Below, in pieces: positions 13,953-20,022 of a DNA stretch of 64,000 bases. The notes beneath the pieces were generated by a model. The model had not been told where the DNA came from. It ran no database searches and saw only the letters and a program-made list of their open reading frames with translations. Both the position numbers and the translations under genes were made by a program. Source of the stretch: Rhizobium etli 8C-3 (GTDB lineage Bacteria; Pseudomonadota; Alphaproteobacteria; Rhizobiales; Rhizobiaceae); the NCBI RefSeq assembly GCF_001908375.1, contig NZ_CP017241.1, positions 251,001 through 315,000 on the forward strand, read 5' to 3'. Every line of letters begins with the position of its first letter. The stretch's first letter is position 1.

Positions 13953-14085
13953 CGATCTCGCTTTCAGGAGTTCTGCCATGTTCCGGCAATATCGGGTAGG
14001 GTATCTTAACGCTCCGTTAGCTAAGGATTTCTAAAGTCGGTCTACCTCCGCCAAAGATCTGTGTCGGCAGGTCACGAGTGTGTTC

Positions 14086-15681
14086 ATGAGCCAATTCGAC
14101 AGGAACAGGGTTAGTCGGCTGCCTAGCTGGCGAAGCTACGAGCCTGCGCCAACCGCGCCGGAAAGCTCTCCCGCGCGCGCGCCTGTCCTCAGGCCTGGTG
14201 ATTTCGCAAAATCCAATCCCGAGCCGGAGGCGCAGCCGTCGCCCGCACCGCCAGAAAAGGACTTGCGCCGGACACAGCCTGTGCCATTGAAGCCGCAGCC
14301 TGCCATTGTCCGCGCAGTGCCGGTTTCAGTCGATCCTGACGCGCCGCTTGTCGATACGCGCTCGGTCATCTTTGCGATCTGGAACAGAAGGCTGATTGTC
14401 CTCGCCCTGACCGCGCTCGGCGCTTTGGCGGGCGGCGCCCTGCTGCCGTTGCTGCCGCAAAAATTCACCGCAAGCACCAGCCTTTACTTCGACCCGCGCC
14501 AGATCGGACTTGCTGATCCGCAGACACAATCAACGACGATTTCGCCCGAGATGATTTCGTCGATGATCGACAGCCAGGTGCAGATTTTGATGTCCGGAAA
14601 TGTGCTGCGCCGGGTTGCCGATACGATGAAGCTTGCAGAGGATCCGGAATTCAACGGCGGCCGGAGCGACGACGCAGCTGTGGTCGGCGCCCTTGAGAAG
14701 GCGCTCACGATCACCCGCCAGAGCAGCACCTATGTCGTATCGCTGACGGCCGTGACGAACAACCCGGAGAAATCCGCCAAGCTTGCAAACCAGGTCGTGA
14801 CTTCCTTCATGCAGGAGGAAAGCAGTGCCTCGACAGGTCTGTATAAGAATACCGCGGCGACGCTCGATGTTCGATTGACCGATCTGCGCCAGAAAGTGCA
14901 GGAGGCCGAGCAGGCCGTCGAGACCTTCCGCGCCGACAACGACATGGCGGCAACGGAGGGCAATCTGATTTCCGACCAGCGCCTTGCCTCGTTGAATACG
15001 CTGCTGCTGACTGCGCAGGAAAAGACGATTCAGGCCAAGGCCCGCGCGGATGCGGCCGCCAATATGAGCTTCGAGGATGTCGTCGCCAATAGTCGAACCG
15101 AGGGCGGTTCTGTGAACTCGTCGCTCGCGAGCCTTCGACAGCAATATTCCGCGCAGGCCGCAGCCGTCGGCAGCCTCGAAAGCCAGATGGGTGCGCGCCA
15201 TCCGCGCCTGCAGGCCGCCCGCTCGTCACTGCAGAGCATTTCGGGCGAAATAAAGGGGGAATTGCAGCGCATGGTGGCTTCGGCGCGCGCCGATTACGAG
15301 CAGGCGACAAAGGCCGAGGAGGCGATTGCCAAGGAACTTAACATTCAAAAGGCACTGCAGGCGACCACGTCCGACAAGCAAGTGGAACTCAACGAACTGC
15401 AGCGCAAGGCGACGGCCGCCCGGGAAATCTACGAGAGCGTCCTGAAGCGCTCCAGCCAGACGACCGAGGAGCAGAACCTTCCGCAGAGCAATATCCGCGT
15501 CATTTCAGAAGCCGAACCCCCAACGAAAGCGGACGGCCCCGGCAAGAAGACCCTGTTGGTCGCCGGCGTCATCGGCGGGCTGTTCACCGGCTTTGCCGCC
15601 GGCGCGGCATTTGCGATCCTGGCAAGCCTCTTTGCCCATCCGGTCATTCGGAGCTATTTCCGCCGGCACGCCCAGCGGTAG
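14086..15681 (+). CDS. Wzz/GumC-type polysaccharide chain-length/export protein
   Basis: This 531-residue polysaccharide co-polymerase starts with a Pro-rich cytoplasmic tail of about 85 residues. It then has a transmembrane helix at about 103-123 (RLIVLALTALGALAGGALL), the Wzz beta-strand segment QKFTASTSLYFDPRQIGL, and a long periplasmic coiled coil (about 240-460, many Glu/Gln/Ala heptads). A second membrane helix lies near 495-518. No cytoplasmic tyrosine kinase domain is fused; the protein ends soon after the second helix, so a separate BY-kinase would be expected if any. The start is an ATG at 14086; a GTG at 14080 is an alternative. It is divergent from the GH5/polymerase operon, indicating one locus. 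Confidence 0.88.
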   Translation: MSQFDRNRVSRLPSWRSYEPAPTAPESSPARAPVLRPGDFAKSNPEPEAQPSPAPPEKDLRRTQPVPLKPQPAIVRAVPVSVDPDAPLVDTRSVIFAIWNRRLIVLALTALGALAGGALLPLLPQKFTASTSLYFDPRQIGLADPQTQSTTISPEMISSMIDSQVQILMSGNVLRRVADTMKLAEDPEFNGGRSDDAAVVGALEKALTITRQSSTYVVSLTAVTNNPEKSAKLANQVVTSFMQEESSASTGLYKNTAATLDVRLTDLRQKVQEAEQAVETFRADNDMAATEGNLISDQRLASLNTLLLTAQEKTIQAKARADAAANMSFEDVVANSRTEGGSVNSSLASLRQQYSAQAAAVGSLESQMGARHPRLQAARSSLQSISGEIKGELQRMVASARADYEQATKAEEAIAKELNIQKALQATTSDKQVELNELQRKATAAREIYESVLKRSSQTTEEQNLPQSNIRVISEAEPPTKADGPGKKTLLVAGVIGGLFTGFAAGAAFAILASLFAHPVIRSYFRRHAQR

Positions 15682-15795: not shown

Positions 15796-16128
15796 ATGCG
15801 ATCCCTGCCGATGTTGCTCGCTGCCCTTTCTGTTGTCAGCGGCGTGATCGCCGGGCCGGCTTTTGCAGCGGATTGGAGCCGGGCGGGCAAAGCAGACATT
15901 CAGCCCCTTTATCCCTATCCCGATCTCCCCGGTGTCAAGTCTCAGCCTGACAAGAGGGATGAGGAACAATATGCCTGCCGCACCGAAACACGCGGCATCC
16001 GTCGCAATGGGGACTGGATCTTCCGCTCCGGCGGCATGCCAACCACCGTCTATGTTTGCGATCGCGACGGCTATGTGACCCAAGGGACGAGAGTGCCTGC
16101 AAGAGGCCATTATCAGCCGGTGCGCTGA
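15796..16128 (+). CDS. Secreted hypothetical protein, 110 residues
   Basis: Residues 1-24 form a clear Sec signal peptide (hydrophobic core LLAALSVVSGVIA, cleavage after PAFA). The mature part is about 86 residues, with two cysteines (Cys61 in EQYACRTET and one in YVCDRDG) that could form a disulfide. It is rich in Arg, Gly and Tyr and resembles small periplasmic proteins found in Rhizobiales, but I cannot name a family. It follows the Wzz-like gene by about 115 bases and ends four bases before the convergent DoxX gene. Confidence 0.75.
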   Translation: MRSLPMLLAALSVVSGVIAGPAFAADWSRAGKADIQPLYPYPDLPGVKSQPDKRDEEQYACRTETRGIRRNGDWIFRSGGMPTTVYVCDRDGYVTQGTRVPARGHYQPVR

Positions 16129-16132
16129 GGCT

Positions 16133-16615
16133 TCATGCCGTGCGGGCAAAATGTCGTGCGATGAAGTGGTCGATTGAAATGCGTCCCGGTCCGCCTGCGA
16201 TGATAACCAGAAAGCAGACGGCCCAGGTGCCGTGTGTCGGCCATGCATCGGGATAGACGAAGATTTCGATCACCAGCGTCATTCCGAGAAGAGCCAGTGC
16301 CGAGAGCCGGCTTGCAAATCCCATGATGAGAAGAGCCGGGAACAGGTGCTCGGCGAAGGCTGCAAGATGCGCGGCGAGCCAGGGATCGATAAACGGCAGC
16401 CGGTATTCCGTCTGGAACAGATAGACGGCATTATCGGAAACGCGCCAGCCGTCGAGCTTGGTTTGCCCGGATTGCCAGAATACCGCGCCGATCGAGATGC
16501 GTGAAATCAGGGCGATCAGGTCGTGCGGGATATGACCGAGGAGACGAAGCACACCGCTGAGTTTCTGCGGAAGGCCGCGAGCTTCTATCCTTGTCATGGT
16601 GCTCTCTTCATTCAT
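16133..16615 (-). CDS. DoxX family membrane protein of the bufferin operon
   Basis: This 160-residue DoxX/DoxD-like protein has four predicted membrane helices (about 35-55, 80-105, 105-125 and 130-150). The family signature RISIGAVFWQSGQTKLDGW is at the start of the first and FAEHLFPALLIMGFASRL is in the second half. It starts at an ATG at 16615, eight bases inside the end of the BufC-like gene, so it is translationally coupled as the last gene of the operon. DoxX-family genes frequently close bufferin operons, where they may serve redox or quinone-linked functions in the membrane. Its precise role is not established. Confidence 0.88.
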   Translation of the reverse strand: MNEESTMTRIEARGLPQKLSGVLRLLGHIPHDLIALISRISIGAVFWQSGQTKLDGWRVSDNAVYLFQTEYRLPFIDPWLAAHLAAFAEHLFPALLIMGFASRLSALALLGMTLVIEIFVYPDAWPTHGTWAVCFLVIIAGGPGRISIDHFIARHFARTA

Positions 16616-17402
16616 GATTGTCTCCCGCGCCGTTCCAGCGCACGTCGATGAAGGCGCCGGCCTGCAGCGCGCCGGCGAGGTTGGATGAAAGATCGAAATC
16701 CGGCGCCGCTTCCGTGGCGTGCTCCAAGGCGGCAACGAGTGCGGCACCCTTTGCAAGTTCCGATAGGAAGGTCGCTCCGCCTGCCGGCAGACGATGCACT
16801 TCGACAATCGTACCTGGCCTCACGACCAACACGTCCTCGCCGCTCCAGTCTTCAATCGGCCGAAGCTCCATCTCGCCGGCATTCATTGCCCAGATGGTCA
16901 CAATCGGATGAGGGGATGTGAGGACCGACAGGGAGGGGTGGGCGAGGAATGTCAACTCGGCGAGGCGATCCGGATCGATTGCGGCCAGCCGCTCGGCCTG
17001 CAGCGGAGCCGCGTCTGCCGCGTGGTAGGCTCGCCCGCGCGCCGCTTCCAGACGGATCACATCCGCAAGATAGGCGACGTCCCTGGCGGGCTCGAAGCGT
17101 TCGACGAAATCCGCAAGGTCGTCGCCGTATGCAAGAAGCAGCGGCGAGCGCGGCGGACAGAGCCGAATGAATTCATGCGACATCGCGGCAAAGAACTCTT
17201 TGCCGACGATCTTTTCGGCCACGGGAAACCGAGAGGCGAGCGCCCCCGTCAGTCCGATCGCCACGTTGTTGCGATAGACGCCAAAACGGCGCTTCGGCCG
17301 CGGCCCATTCCAGGCGGTCAAGCCTTCGGGAACCGGCAGGGAGATGTCGGTCAGTGCTGCTGCGAAGTCGTCTTGCGTCGTGGTTGGCACAGAGAACCTC
17401 AT
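16608..17402 (-). CDS. bufC: HvfC/BufC-type partner protein (DUF2063 N-terminal domain)
   Basis: The 264-residue protein carries the DUF2063 (HvfC/BufC N-terminal) domain, with [39 protein letters not shown] sequence split over residues 40-65, and [20 protein letters not shown]. In this family the protein is thought to act as a recognition partner for the DUF692/MNIO enzyme that modifies the precursor peptide. Its ATG overlaps the stop of bufB by four bases (ATGA), and its end overlaps the DoxX gene. The tight overlaps mean one polycistron. Function is from family knowledge, not directly visible. Confidence 0.9.
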
Positions 17403-18250
17403 GCGGCCCGACGTGCGGAGCTCTTGAGGATCGCATCAGCGGCCTCTGCTTCGGCGCGCAATACCGGCCATTCCGGCACGTCGTTGTCCCATTCCACCAG
17501 GCTTGCGATTGGCCCGGTTCGGTTGATCAGTTCCTCGTAGAGCGCCCAGACGGGATCCTTTACGGGCGTGTCATGCGAATCGATCAAAAGCCGCGCGCCC
17601 AAATCGTCCATCGTTTCCGAATGACCGCTCAGGTGGATTTCGCCGACAAACTGAACTGGAAAGCGGGCGAGATAATCGCGCGGGTCCATATGATGGTTGG
17701 TGGAGGCGACGAAGACGTTGTTGACATCGAGGAGCAGGCCGCAGCCGGTTCGCCTGACGACTTCGGCGAGAAAATCGGTCTCTTCGATCGTGCTTTCCTC
17801 GAAGAGCAGATAGGTGGCCGGATTTTCGAGCAACATCTGCCGCTTCAGCGTGTTTTGCACCTCATCGACATGTTCGGCGACCTGCGCAAGCGTCGCCTCG
17901 GTATAAGGCAGCGGCAGGAGGTCACTGAGGAAGACTGCAGCGTGCGTCGACCAGGCGAGATGTTCGGAAAAGCTCTCCGGTTCGTAGCGGTCGCAAAGGG
18001 ATTTCAGGCGGGCAAGATGCACCTTGTCGAGTGGCTGCATCGAGCCGATGGAAAGGCCGACGCCATGGATCGACAGCGCGTAATCTTCTCGCAACTTTCC
18101 AAGCTGGGCATGCGGCGGCCCGCCCGCACCCATGTAATTTTCGGCATGCACTTCGAAGAAGCCGATCGGCTGTGGCTTTGCATAAATGTCGGTGAAATGC
18201 TGCGGCTTGAAGCCGACGCCGGCGCGACGGGGAAGTCCTGACGCTTTCAT
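17399..18250 (-). CDS. bufB: DUF692/MNIO-family peptide-modifying enzyme (BufB-like)
   Basis: The 283-residue protein belongs to the DUF692 family (TIM-barrel multinuclear iron-dependent oxidases, related to MbnB and BufB). Metal-ligand-rich stretches are visible along the barrel: [44 protein letters not shown] and [11 protein letters not shown], each with the conserved His, Glu, Asp or Asn. Such enzymes convert cysteines of the partner peptide into copper-binding heterocycles. It starts at an ATG at 18250, 73 bases after the bufA1 stop, and is coupled to bufC by a four-base overlap. The substrate is very likely the four-cysteine peptide encoded just upstream. Confidence 0.93.
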
Positions 18251-18323
18251 GTCATCTCTCCTGGAAGTGGGACGGCGGTGCTGATAGTCGGGCGCCGCCG
18301 ATCTTTTCGCATATGTTTGGATG

Positions 18324-18608
18324 TCAGGCCGGGGCCGGGCCTTGCTTCAGAGAGCCGTGACCATTCGGCGTCTTCATCGCCTCGCAGGTACCGGCCGGAA
18401 CGAGCTTCCAGGCGTTTTGCTGATAGTCGACCTTCGACGTTCCGGCGCAAGTGGTCCCCGGTCCGGCCGCGCAGTCGTTCTGGCCCTTCATGGCAACGCC
18501 GTAGCACTTTTCCTTGTTGTCCGCGGCCGAAGCGGCGGGAGCGGCAACAGTGGCAAGCGCCGAAGCGAGCGAGCCTGCGAGAGCCAGCGTAACGATGCTG
18601 TTTTTCAT
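18324..18608 (-). CDS. bufA1: Bufferin-type four-cysteine exported metallophore precursor (BufA1/DUF2282-like)
   Basis: This 94-residue precursor has a Sec signal peptide (residues 1-28, cleavage after PAASA) and a mature part with four cysteines at 35, 46, 54 and 75 ([31 protein letters not shown]). This is the DUF2282/bufferin-1 pattern, and the KCYG..KGxNDC start is diagnostic. Bufferins are ribosomal peptides whose cysteines are modified by a DUF692 enzyme and which bind copper in the periplasm. CGGAG lies about seven bases before the ATG at 18608. It heads the operon and is preceded by a GTAACA-N16-CGTA promoter. The C-terminal [14 protein letters not shown] tail is unstructured. Confidence 0.92.
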
Positions 18609-18657
18609 TGTTCATCTCCGTGAGAATGGCAATCCGTGATTGGCTTGCATTGCGGGC

Positions 18658-18683
18658 TACGGAGGCGATCGATGGAATGTTAC
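18658..18683 (-). promoter_or_regulatory. ECF-sigma promoter of the bufferin operon (GTAACA-N16-CGTA)
   Basis: On the minus strand GTAACA (18683-18678) is followed by exactly 16 bases and CGTA (18661-18658). The same two blocks with the same spacing occur in the promoter of the divergent sigma gene. The element resembles the GTAACC-N16-CGAA consensus recalled for Caulobacter SigF. Initiation would fall near 18651, giving a 5' leader of about 40 bases that includes the bufA1 ribosome-binding site. Confidence 0.8.
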
Positions 18684-18793
18684 ATCGCGTATTGCATTTT
18701 TTTGCCGGCCCGGCTTGCCGACTTCGCGATTGCAGGGGAAAAGGCCTGAGAACAAAGGCTCGCCCGCTACCGCGAAGTAATTTCGAACAAGCG

Positions 18794-18819
18794 GTAACAA
18801 AGATGTGTGCCCTCTCGTA
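18794..18819 (+). promoter_or_regulatory. Autoregulatory ECF-sigma promoter upstream of the sigma/NrsF pair
   Basis: GTAACA at 18794-18799, then 16 bases, then CGTA at 18816-18819, identical in both blocks and spacing to the divergent bufferin promoter. This predicts that the sigma factor switches on its own operon together with the bufferin operon. The expected start of transcription (about 18825-18827) lies after the AGAGGA that would serve the GTG start, which leaves the exact start codon or promoter use open. Confidence 0.72.
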
Positions 18820-18833
18820 GAGGATTATGTCGG

Positions 18834-19400
18834 GTGAAATATTCAGCGCGGGAAGAGGAATGGGCAGGCTGGATGCGGAGCGCCATGGATGGCGATGTTA
18901 AGGCCTATCATCGCTTTCTTTCAGCTGTAACGCCTCATCTGCGCGCCATGGCCCGCAGGCGCTGCGAGCAATTTGGCGCGCCGGCAGGCGAGGCCGAGGA
19001 TGTCGTTCAGGAGGTGCTGCTTGCTGTTCACCTGAAACGCGGAACCTGGGATCCGGCTCGGCCCATCGGACCTTGGCTGTCGACGATCGTGCGCAATAAG
19101 CTGATAGACAGCCTGCGCCGCCGCGGCCGTCACATCGATGTGCCGATCGACGATGTGATGACAACGCTCGAGGCGGAAGAACAGGCGAGCAACTTGGATA
19201 GGCTCGACGCCGAACATATGTTGAATCGCCTGAAGGATCCGCAGCGTGATATCGTGCGTTCGATTTCGATCGAGGGAGCAGGTGTTCGCGAAACGGCCGA
19301 AAGGCTGAAGATGAGCGAAGGTGCGGTACGCGTGGCGCTGCACCGGGCGTTGAAGTCGCTGGCGGCCTTATACCGGAGTGAGACGAGTGAAGACCGATGA
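18834..19400 (+). CDS. sigF: ECF RNA polymerase sigma factor (SigF-like, NrsF-controlled)
   Basis: The 188-residue protein has a sigma region 2 (about 20-95, with AEDVVQEVLLAVHLKRGTWD and PWLSTIVRNKLIDSLRRRG) and a region 4 helix-turn-helix (about 130-180, VRETAERLKMSEGAVRVALHR). It has no extra anti-sigma-like extension. A GTG at 18834 has AGAGGA nine bases upstream; an ATG at 18873 would give a 175-residue form. It is followed by, and overlaps by 14 bases, an NrsF-type membrane anti-sigma gene. Divergent from bufA1, it should direct transcription of both operons from matched promoters. The Caulobacter counterpart answers metal stress; that signal is assumed here. Confidence 0.92.
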   Translation: MKYSAREEEWAGWMRSAMDGDVKAYHRFLSAVTPHLRAMARRRCEQFGAPAGEAEDVVQEVLLAVHLKRGTWDPARPIGPWLSTIVRNKLIDSLRRRGRHIDVPIDDVMTTLEAEEQASNLDRLDAEHMLNRLKDPQRDIVRSISIEGAGVRETAERLKMSEGAVRVALHRALKSLAALYRSETSEDR

Positions 19401-20022
19401 CCTGATCAGCCTGCTGGCCCAAGACGCGCCCATCCGCATGCGGCTTGGGCCCTTGCTCGTGGGAGCGCTTTTGATCGGCGTCGCAGTCTCGACAGCGTTG
19501 CTTCTGTCGGCAGTCGGTATTCGCCCCGACATGGCAAGCGCGATCGAAACGGCACGCGTGCTGTTCAAGGTGGTTGTGACCTTGACGCTTGCCGTCGCCG
19601 CTTGCGGGCTTGTCTTTCGCATAGGCCGTCCAGGCGTTCCGCTTTGGCTTTCAAGCCTGGCGCTGTTCGTGCCGCTGATCCTGCTCGTGACAGGCGCCGC
19701 CGCCGAACTGTCGGTCACACCGCAGGATGCATGGGAAACCGCCATGCTCGGGCGCAACGCGAGCTTCTGCCTGTTCTTCATCCCGGTCCTGTCGCTCGCG
19801 CCGCTTGCGGGTTTTCTCTGGGCGCTGAAAAGTGGTGCTGCGGAAAGCCCGGGCCTTGCCGGAGCCGCAGCCGGCCTTGCTGCCGGCGGGATAGCAGCAG
19901 CTCTTTATGCCTGGCACTGCACGGACGACAGCCCGCTATTTGTCGCGGTCTGGTACACCACGGCAATCGCGGCAGTGACAGCCATCGGCGCGCTGATCGG
20001 ATCACGATATCTGAAGTGGTAA
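19387..20022 (+). CDS. nrsF: NrsF-family (DUF1109) membrane anti-sigma factor
   Basis: This 211-residue NrsF protein has a short cytoplasmic N-terminus (MKTDDLISLLAQDAPIRM) followed by six membrane helices (about 23-45, 58-80, 87-110, 125-145, 155-175 and 185-205). In Caulobacter NrsF holds SigF inactive at the membrane, and conserved cysteines sense metals. Here cysteines are visible in AVAACGLVF, NASFCLFF and YAWHCTDDS. The start is the GTG at 19387, since GGAG lies eight bases upstream and the reading gives the family N-terminus. A GTG at 19378 is less likely. It overlaps the sigma gene, so the two are produced together. Confidence 0.9.
   Translation: MKTDDLISLLAQDAPIRMRLGPLLVGALLIGVAVSTALLLSAVGIRPDMASAIETARVLFKVVVTLTLAVAACGLVFRIGRPGVPLWLSSLALFVPLILLVTGAAAELSVTPQDAWETAMLGRNASFCLFFIPVLSLAPLAGFLWALKSGAAESPGLAGAAAGLAAGGIAAALYAWHCTDDSPLFVAVWYTTAIAAVTAIGALIGSRYLKW

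Follow-up and report, generated by a model that had tools for sequence, protein, structure and literature searches.

Does a single extracytoplasmic function (ECF) sigma factor of Rhizobium etli 8C-3 switch on both its own operon and a divergent operon for a copper-binding peptide? The genes concerned lie within a 64,000-nt stretch of contig NZ_CP017241.1 (hereafter the window), where bufA1, bufB, bufC and a doxX gene on the minus strand face, on the plus strand, genes for an ECF sigma factor and an NrsF-family anti-sigma factor. The initial annotation had read this arrangement as a complete bufferin operon and proposed, from identical GTAACA-N16-CGTA elements on both sides, that the sigma factor drives the two operons. 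In our analysis the locus is very likely a Buf1-type bufferin operon controlled by a switch of the sigma-F/NrsF type (ECF16) that drives both operons and serves periplasmic copper buffering. Control of both operons by one sigma factor is well supported by conservation and by published orthologs, and metal sensing by NrsF is plausible given its conserved cysteine pair; for this strain we infer the sigma dependence, signal, modification, export and copper function from these comparisons.

Identity of the locus and its paired motifs

All six proteins of the locus scored above their Pfam cut-offs, bearing out the gene content first proposed. The cluster has the features of Buf1 systems, namely a DUF2282 precursor with four cysteines, an MNIO of the BufB kind, and a DUF2063 partner and DoxX protein encoded in the same operon with overlapping genes. 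The four BufA1 cysteines are kept in 86/86, 86/86, 86/86 and 85/85 aligned copies, the window's own counted. Models for the oxazolin-type HvfABCX cluster all stayed below cut-off (HvfX 49.6 against 80, HvfC 35 against 142 and HvfB 232 against 360), and NrsF, DoxX and BufC were each under their narrower NCBIfam equivalog cut-offs. On the regulatory side, an adjoining NrsF-family gene, a cysteine pair approximately 50 residues apart and GTAAC-N16/17-CG(A/T)A motifs place the sigma factor with the sigma-F/NrsF group, its ECF16 number being borrowed from published relatives. The sulfite-responsive ECF26 class (RpoE1/RpoE4), which has a -35 GGAATA / -10 GT promoter and a COG5662-type anti-sigma factor, was ruled out based on its different promoter motif and anti-sigma family. 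Judged by its sequence, the locus is a real and complete bufferin system.

Both motifs were present, exact, at the positions first reported (Table 1). The source genome (G000; 7,309,118 bases, or 7.31 Mb, in four contigs) holds just five exact copies of GTAACA-N16-CGTA on its two strands, two of them in this one intergenic gap. Since the expectation for a 225-bp stretch is ~0.00015, a pair in the 225-bp gap is far beyond chance. Among the 30 own-genome sites listed, 27 remain when the two promoters and a site before ilvD are set aside; their contexts were checked, and most lie inside predicted open reading frames (ORFs). One of these sites (L005) points into a DnaJ-like gene lying on the opposite strand, and another (L478) lies 94 nt before an ORF. 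At G000:C4:462290-462315 (L093) an exact motif abuts the ATG of a DUF982 ORF, with the same 26 bases found in genome G023; this motif is unlikely to serve as a promoter for that ATG.

The motif pair was then scored in relatives. The best 80 of the 90 relatives found in the named genome collection, 60 loci from the same genus or family (40 and 20) and the window made up 141 loci, of which two were dropped, one with no sigma match (L053) and one in which the sigma gene does not adjoin nrsF (L213). The sigma gene therefore adjoins nrsF in 139 of 141 loci, which represent 129 unique sigma–NrsF pairs. Divergent buf genes, defined as lying within 1.2 kb, are found in 63 of the 129 unique loci, including at least two remnants (L014 and L186). 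The pattern GTAACN-N16-CGNA occurs on both sides in 51 of these 63, on the buf side only in six, on the sigma side only in three and on neither side in three, so that the buf-side motif is present in 57. It was found in none of 516 control strand-stretches of neighbouring coding DNA, each of 460 bp, and we rejected a chance motif on this basis. Where divergent buf genes are lacking, the sigma-side motif persists in 58 of 66 unique loci. Chance resemblance, with the operons using other promoters, would fit the finding that the exact pattern is not enriched genome-wide (five copies versus six for a reversed control pattern), but it is very improbable in view of the retention of the pair despite diverged spacers, its absence from the controls, and the promoters of such kind that have been mapped in Sinorhizobium meliloti and Caulobacter.

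Identity of the two boxes, which the initial annotation had relied upon, is not required, as loci mixing CGTA and CGAA exist. The -10 elements of the 51 two-sided loci are paired as CGAA/CGAA in 27, CGTA/CGTA in 23 and mixed in one, and on a quick sigma tree they changed twice on the sigma side and once on the buf side. We considered, and rejected, a joint shift from CGAA to CGTA linked to sigma region 2, and claim no coevolution, because the tree changes are so few, the residue differences are confounded with clade and six co-directional loci are mixed. In those six (L211, L212, L214, L217, L218 and L220) the buf operon precedes sigma-nrsF on the same strand, with a CGAA buf promoter and a CGTA sigma promoter, and one sigma factor may read both.

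Published relatives and a proposed mechanism

The arrangement is not new, since precedents have been published for S. meliloti RpoE7 and Caulobacter sigma-F; the divergent layout and its regulatory logic are known from these relatives and the window is a new example. What follows rests on the available parts of the papers cited. The S. meliloti system, RpoE7-EcfR7 (ECF16) with SMb20530-20527, resembles the window in being rhizobial, in its divergent layout with DUF692 and DUF2063 genes, in its two-sided promoters and in the activation of both operons by sigma. The most strongly raised targets were four genes transcribed divergently from rpoE7-ecfR7, the DUF692 and DUF2063 genes among them, overexpressed RpoE7 raised both divergent operons, and both promoters, GTAACA-N16-CGAA, are tabulated as mapped by rapid amplification of cDNA ends (5'-RACE) or RNA-Seq (PMC6180224). 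It differs from the window in its -10 element (CGAA rather than CGTA) and in that its genes are called conserved hypothetical proteins, not a bufferin operon. Given this direct precedent, the statement that rhizobial examples are unstudied does not wholly hold, although a literature search on RpoE7/Sinorhizobium and DUF692/Rhizobium, with most subscription journals outside its coverage, found no copper test of a rhizobial bufferin.

In Caulobacter, as in the window, sigF-nrsF lies beside a DUF2282-DUF692-DUF2063-DoxX operon (CC3254-CC3257, buf1), with the NrsF cysteine pair and a GTAAC-type motif. Sigma-F is required for CC3254-3257, the promoter is GTAACC-N16-CGAA, and NrsF, with cysteines C131/C181, is a negative regulator (PMC3511200). 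The SigF regulon is induced by copper and a sigF mutant is copper-sensitive (PMC8224329); Caulobacter Buf1 carries Cu-chelating thiooxazoles, and sigma and NrsF genes occur in Buf1, not Buf2, clusters (PMC12452194). Thiooxazole metallophores are also treated in PMC13097082. As a point of difference from the window, sigma-F of Caulobacter further governs a second operon with paralogs of DUF692 and DUF2063 and an msrPQ homolog. The source genome too has a second Buf1-like operon, at G000:C1 ~3,067,660-3,070,260 (L095 2164-4761), in which tblastn identified a four-cysteine peptide with 49% identity to BufA1 across the aligned portion, an MNIO (C1:3068927-3069949), BufC-like and DoxX-like proteins and then an NDH2-like dehydrogenase. 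In contrast to the Caulobacter case, it has no exact motif upstream, and neither sigma nor NrsF was found within the 8 kb examined. Relatives of its MNIO, 73-91% identical, occur in 15 other genus genomes.

More distant systems share the regulator and differ in output. Bradyrhizobium EcfF-OsrA and Brucella BcrS-AbcS (ECF16) have the same sigma/anti-sigma family, cysteine pair and GTAAC-type promoters, but their outputs are methionine-sulfoxide repair and oxidative or hypochlorous acid (HOCl) stress responses, and the term DUF692 is in neither main text (PMC3420878 and PMC8315932) as available. The gig operons of Cupriavidus and Legionella, induced by gold and copper, are called bufferin clusters in PMC12452194 and likened to the Caulobacter cluster in PMC8224329; they are known here through these descriptions.

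In NrsF, Cys128 is kept in 129/129 and Cys178 in 127/129 unique loci, and by position and spacing they correspond to residues 131/181 in Caulobacter and 129/179 in Bradyrhizobium OsrA, where C129 is needed to hold sigma and C179 to respond to H2O2 (PMC3420878). Because the pair is nearly invariant and has these roles in OsrA, we infer that sigma is released via cysteine oxidation or metal modification. In an unstressed cell the membrane protein NrsF would hold the sigma factor, and, by analogy with Caulobacter NrsF and OsrA, damage or modification at its two conserved cysteines would free it. The freed sigma factor would read GTAACA-N16-CGTA in both directions, boosting its own gene and nrsF and turning on bufA1BC-doxX. 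BufB and BufC would then turn the BufA1 cysteines into copper-binding thiooxazoles, the chemistry reported for the Caulobacter homolog, and BufA1, exported to the periplasm, would bind excess copper.

Turnover of the operon and competing explanations

Several results, in addition to the lack of genome-wide motif enrichment, weigh against this reading of a copper-buffering switch. The window NrsF scores 92 bits against the cut-off of 300 for NF042994, the NCBIfam NrsF equivalog, the Pfam family being the same. Five of the six nearest loci retain sigma-nrsF and its own promoter but lack an intact buf operon, and in 14 of 95 genus genomes the window-type NrsF is present with no MNIO detected, which argues that bufferin is not the sole purpose of the sigma factor. 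The buf promoter ends in CGAA in seven of the eight co-directional loci with upstream buf genes, and in six of those seven the sigma promoter has CGTA. Lastly, S. meliloti rpoE7 and a target were not induced by H2O2, CdCl2 or K2CrO4, copper not being among the agents named in the available part of that report (PMC6180224).

Among the six nearest loci, just L189 (G023) aligns across the whole region. The stretches missing correspond to window positions 16187-18447 in L185 (G051), 16178-18437 in L186 (G101) and 16200-18643 in L187 (G040), and L188 and L190 (G137 and G138) retain the doxX 3' end together with a small piece of that gene in inverted orientation, the alignment resuming at 18694. These five genomes thus show no fewer than three junction types, and each carries an MNIO gene at another place. 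On the quick sigma tree, which has many weak branches, the presence of divergent buf genes requires at least 23 changes with remnants scored as present. In the genus-wide survey, 97 of 148 genomes passed E 1e-30 with the window NrsF, or 95 after removal of two weak matches (G069 and G118), and 81 of these 95, versus 23 of the 53 others, gave an MNIO match at E 1e-40 to the second MNIO of the source genome. Of the 14 genomes with no MNIO detected, one (G054) is only 82% complete; the adjoining sigma gene was checked in nine, being present in eight and not found at the G029 locus examined. G029 itself has seven window-like NrsF genes. On these genome comparisons the bufferin operon is a replaceable module, coming and going beside a stable regulator, a turnover that we regard as a modest surprise. 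In G040 (C31 ~85452-88030) and G101 (C2 ~251069-253639) an MNIO gene lies within ~2 kb of a different NrsF gene, possibly a replacement for the lost window-type operon. The locus is a clean and testable rhizobial bufferin system in which regulator and metallophore prove separable, and sister species with or without the peptide, all retaining this switch, offer a comparison on what NrsF senses, copper or oxidation.

The latter is at the center of a competing explanation to which we assign somewhat less than an even chance, that periplasmic oxidation (by peroxide, singlet oxygen, hypochlorite or oxidised methionine) is the main signal for the switch, with bufferin an exchangeable output beside methionine-sulfoxide repair and copper acting via oxidative or thiol damage, not direct binding. 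When 12 of the 95 genus genomes were scanned for exact GTAACA-N16-CGTA, the motif began 55-125 nt before an MsrB gene, followed by an MsrA or CcdA-like gene, in nine (G049, G073, G115, G126, G128, G132, G133, G135 and G136), among them all seven scanned genomes with no detected MNIO; it also began 66-68 nt before a cytochrome b561 gene accompanied by a molybdopterin oxidoreductase in five (G128, G132, G133, G135 and G136). At these sites the boxes are constant and the spacers vary among genomes. Pfam supports the MsrB, MsrA, cytochrome b561 and oxidoreductase assignments, the CcdA-like protein being just below the DsbD_TM cut-off (26 versus 27.1 bits), and by eye the MsrB start is twin-arginine-like. 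Furthermore, H2O2 and singlet oxygen induce EcfF-OsrA, whose targets include Msr and cytochrome-biogenesis genes (PMC3420878), and the Brucella BcrS operons are induced by HOCl (PMC8315932). Set against this, the exact motif shows no numerical enrichment across the 12 genomes, with 62 sites versus 89 for the reversed control, and in the source genome the examined flanks of its three MsrB-like genes had no motif match of 9/10 or better. Neither the MsrB nor the cytochrome b561 motif sites were found in the source genome, G023 or G080. Since the motif precedes the Msr operon in all seven scanned genomes without a detected MNIO, the switch probably has a broader role in oxidation and metal stress of the periplasm; the label "metallophore switch" is too narrow, as relatives of the sigma factor appear to control methionine-sulfoxide repair. 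A broader and more tentative proposal is that in this rhizobial clade sigma-NrsF broadly senses thiol, methionine and copper damage in the periplasm, with bufferin a plug-in output repeatedly lost and replaced around a retained switch, and with the same promoter driving Msr and the molybdenum oxidoreductase where it is absent, and perhaps ilvD in the source genome.

Enzymes of the ilvD class are iron-sulfur dehydratases prone to copper and oxidant damage. It is unlikely that the sigma factor also drives ilvD here and renews the damaged enzyme. In favour of it, the third own-genome site preceding a gene begins 195 nt before ilvD, beside msrPQ. The exact site is present in 12/12 genus genomes scanned, and the sixth base of the element is A in 28/28 genomes that have both the element and the window-type NrsF, versus 18/42 without that NrsF type. 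Conversely, among 98 genus genomes the element in any form is kept in 42/49 without the window-type NrsF and in just 28/49 with it, it is kept in G067, where the search found no NrsF, and it is absent in 28/28 other-genus genomes examined; these distributions led us to reject ilvD as a firm regulon member. The element usually continues CGTATAT, which we take to resemble a housekeeping -10, and an ordinary promoter is probable; genuine control by sigma is a small possibility. The RpoE7 targets named in the available part of PMC6180224 do not include ilvD. The preferred reading remains a Buf1 operon and its ECF16 switch, whose genes are described below.

Features of the locus and minor observations

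Table 1. Predicted promoters and genes of the bufferin locus (window coordinates)
Feature	Coordinates	Strand	Details
Predicted ECF16-type buf-operon promoter, GTAACA-N16-CGTA, GTAACATTCCATCGATCGCCTCCGTA	18683-18658	-	Exact; ends 49 nt before bufA1
Predicted autoregulatory sigma-nrsF promoter, GTAACA-N16-CGTA, GTAACAAAGATGTGTGCCCTCTCGTA	18794-18819	+	Exact; ends 14 nt before GTG start
bufA1, Buf1-type (DUF2282) precursor peptide, 94 aa, four cysteines, probably exported	18324-18608	-	PF10048 E 2.2e-26, 92 bits, cut-off 22.4
bufB, MNIO (DUF692) bufferin maturase, 283 aa	17399-18250	-	PF05114 E 9e-106; NF050167 MNIO_BufB 385 bits, cut-off 310
bufC, DUF2063 partner protein of MNIO enzyme	16608-17402	-	PF09836 E 3e-23
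DoxX-family gene	16133-16615	-	PF07681 E 7.6e-18; ATG at 16615 read from sequence
ECF sigma factor (sigF/rpoE7-like), 188 aa, regions 2 and 4	18834-19400	+	PF04542, PF08281 above cut-offs; PRK12512 290 bits, cut-off 198
NrsF-family anti-sigma factor, 211 aa, 14-nt overlap with sigma gene	19387-20022	+	PF06532 E 3.7e-53, 180.8 bits, cut-off 26.8

Coupling of the buf genes by small overlaps, as initially described, applies to bufB/bufC (4 nt) and bufC/doxX (8 nt) but not to bufA and bufB, which are 73 nt apart; an attenuator hairpin in that gap was unsupported (z-score 0.06), and no known RNA family reached its gathering score between 15500 and 21500. The N-terminus of BufA1, inspected by eye for a Sec signal peptide, is hydrophobic and ends in AASAA. 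BufB matches the sequences of the solved DUF692/MbnB chains 3bww, 8hci and 7dz9, and BufC had no match in a PDB sequence search at E 0.001. The sigma factor most likely starts at GTG 18834 rather than at the upstream GTG 18807, which would lie inside the promoter, because this start lies 40 nt from the motif's first base, a spacing conserved at 37-40 nt in 49 of the 52 loci whose sigma factor is at least 60% identical.

Two genes near the locus were also noted. The window encodes at 15796-16128 (+) a protein of 110 aa whose N-terminus is hydrophobic and which matched no Pfam family, and ORFs resembling it by eye adjoin sigma-nrsF in the buf-less loci L195, L205 and L219. A Wzz/GNVR chain-length determinant gene at 14080-15681 (+) stays, by eye, near the sigma locus in several relatives. 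Two bufA copies lie near the sigma gene in 16 unique loci (L015, L192, L194, L199-L203 and others), compared to one in the window, and in L072 the two copies sit in separate clusters. Within the same genus, L096-L125 represent a second, diverged ECF16/NrsF type (NrsF ~33% identical), in which at least one GTAACN-N16-CGAA motif occurs near the sigma start in 27 of 30 loci.

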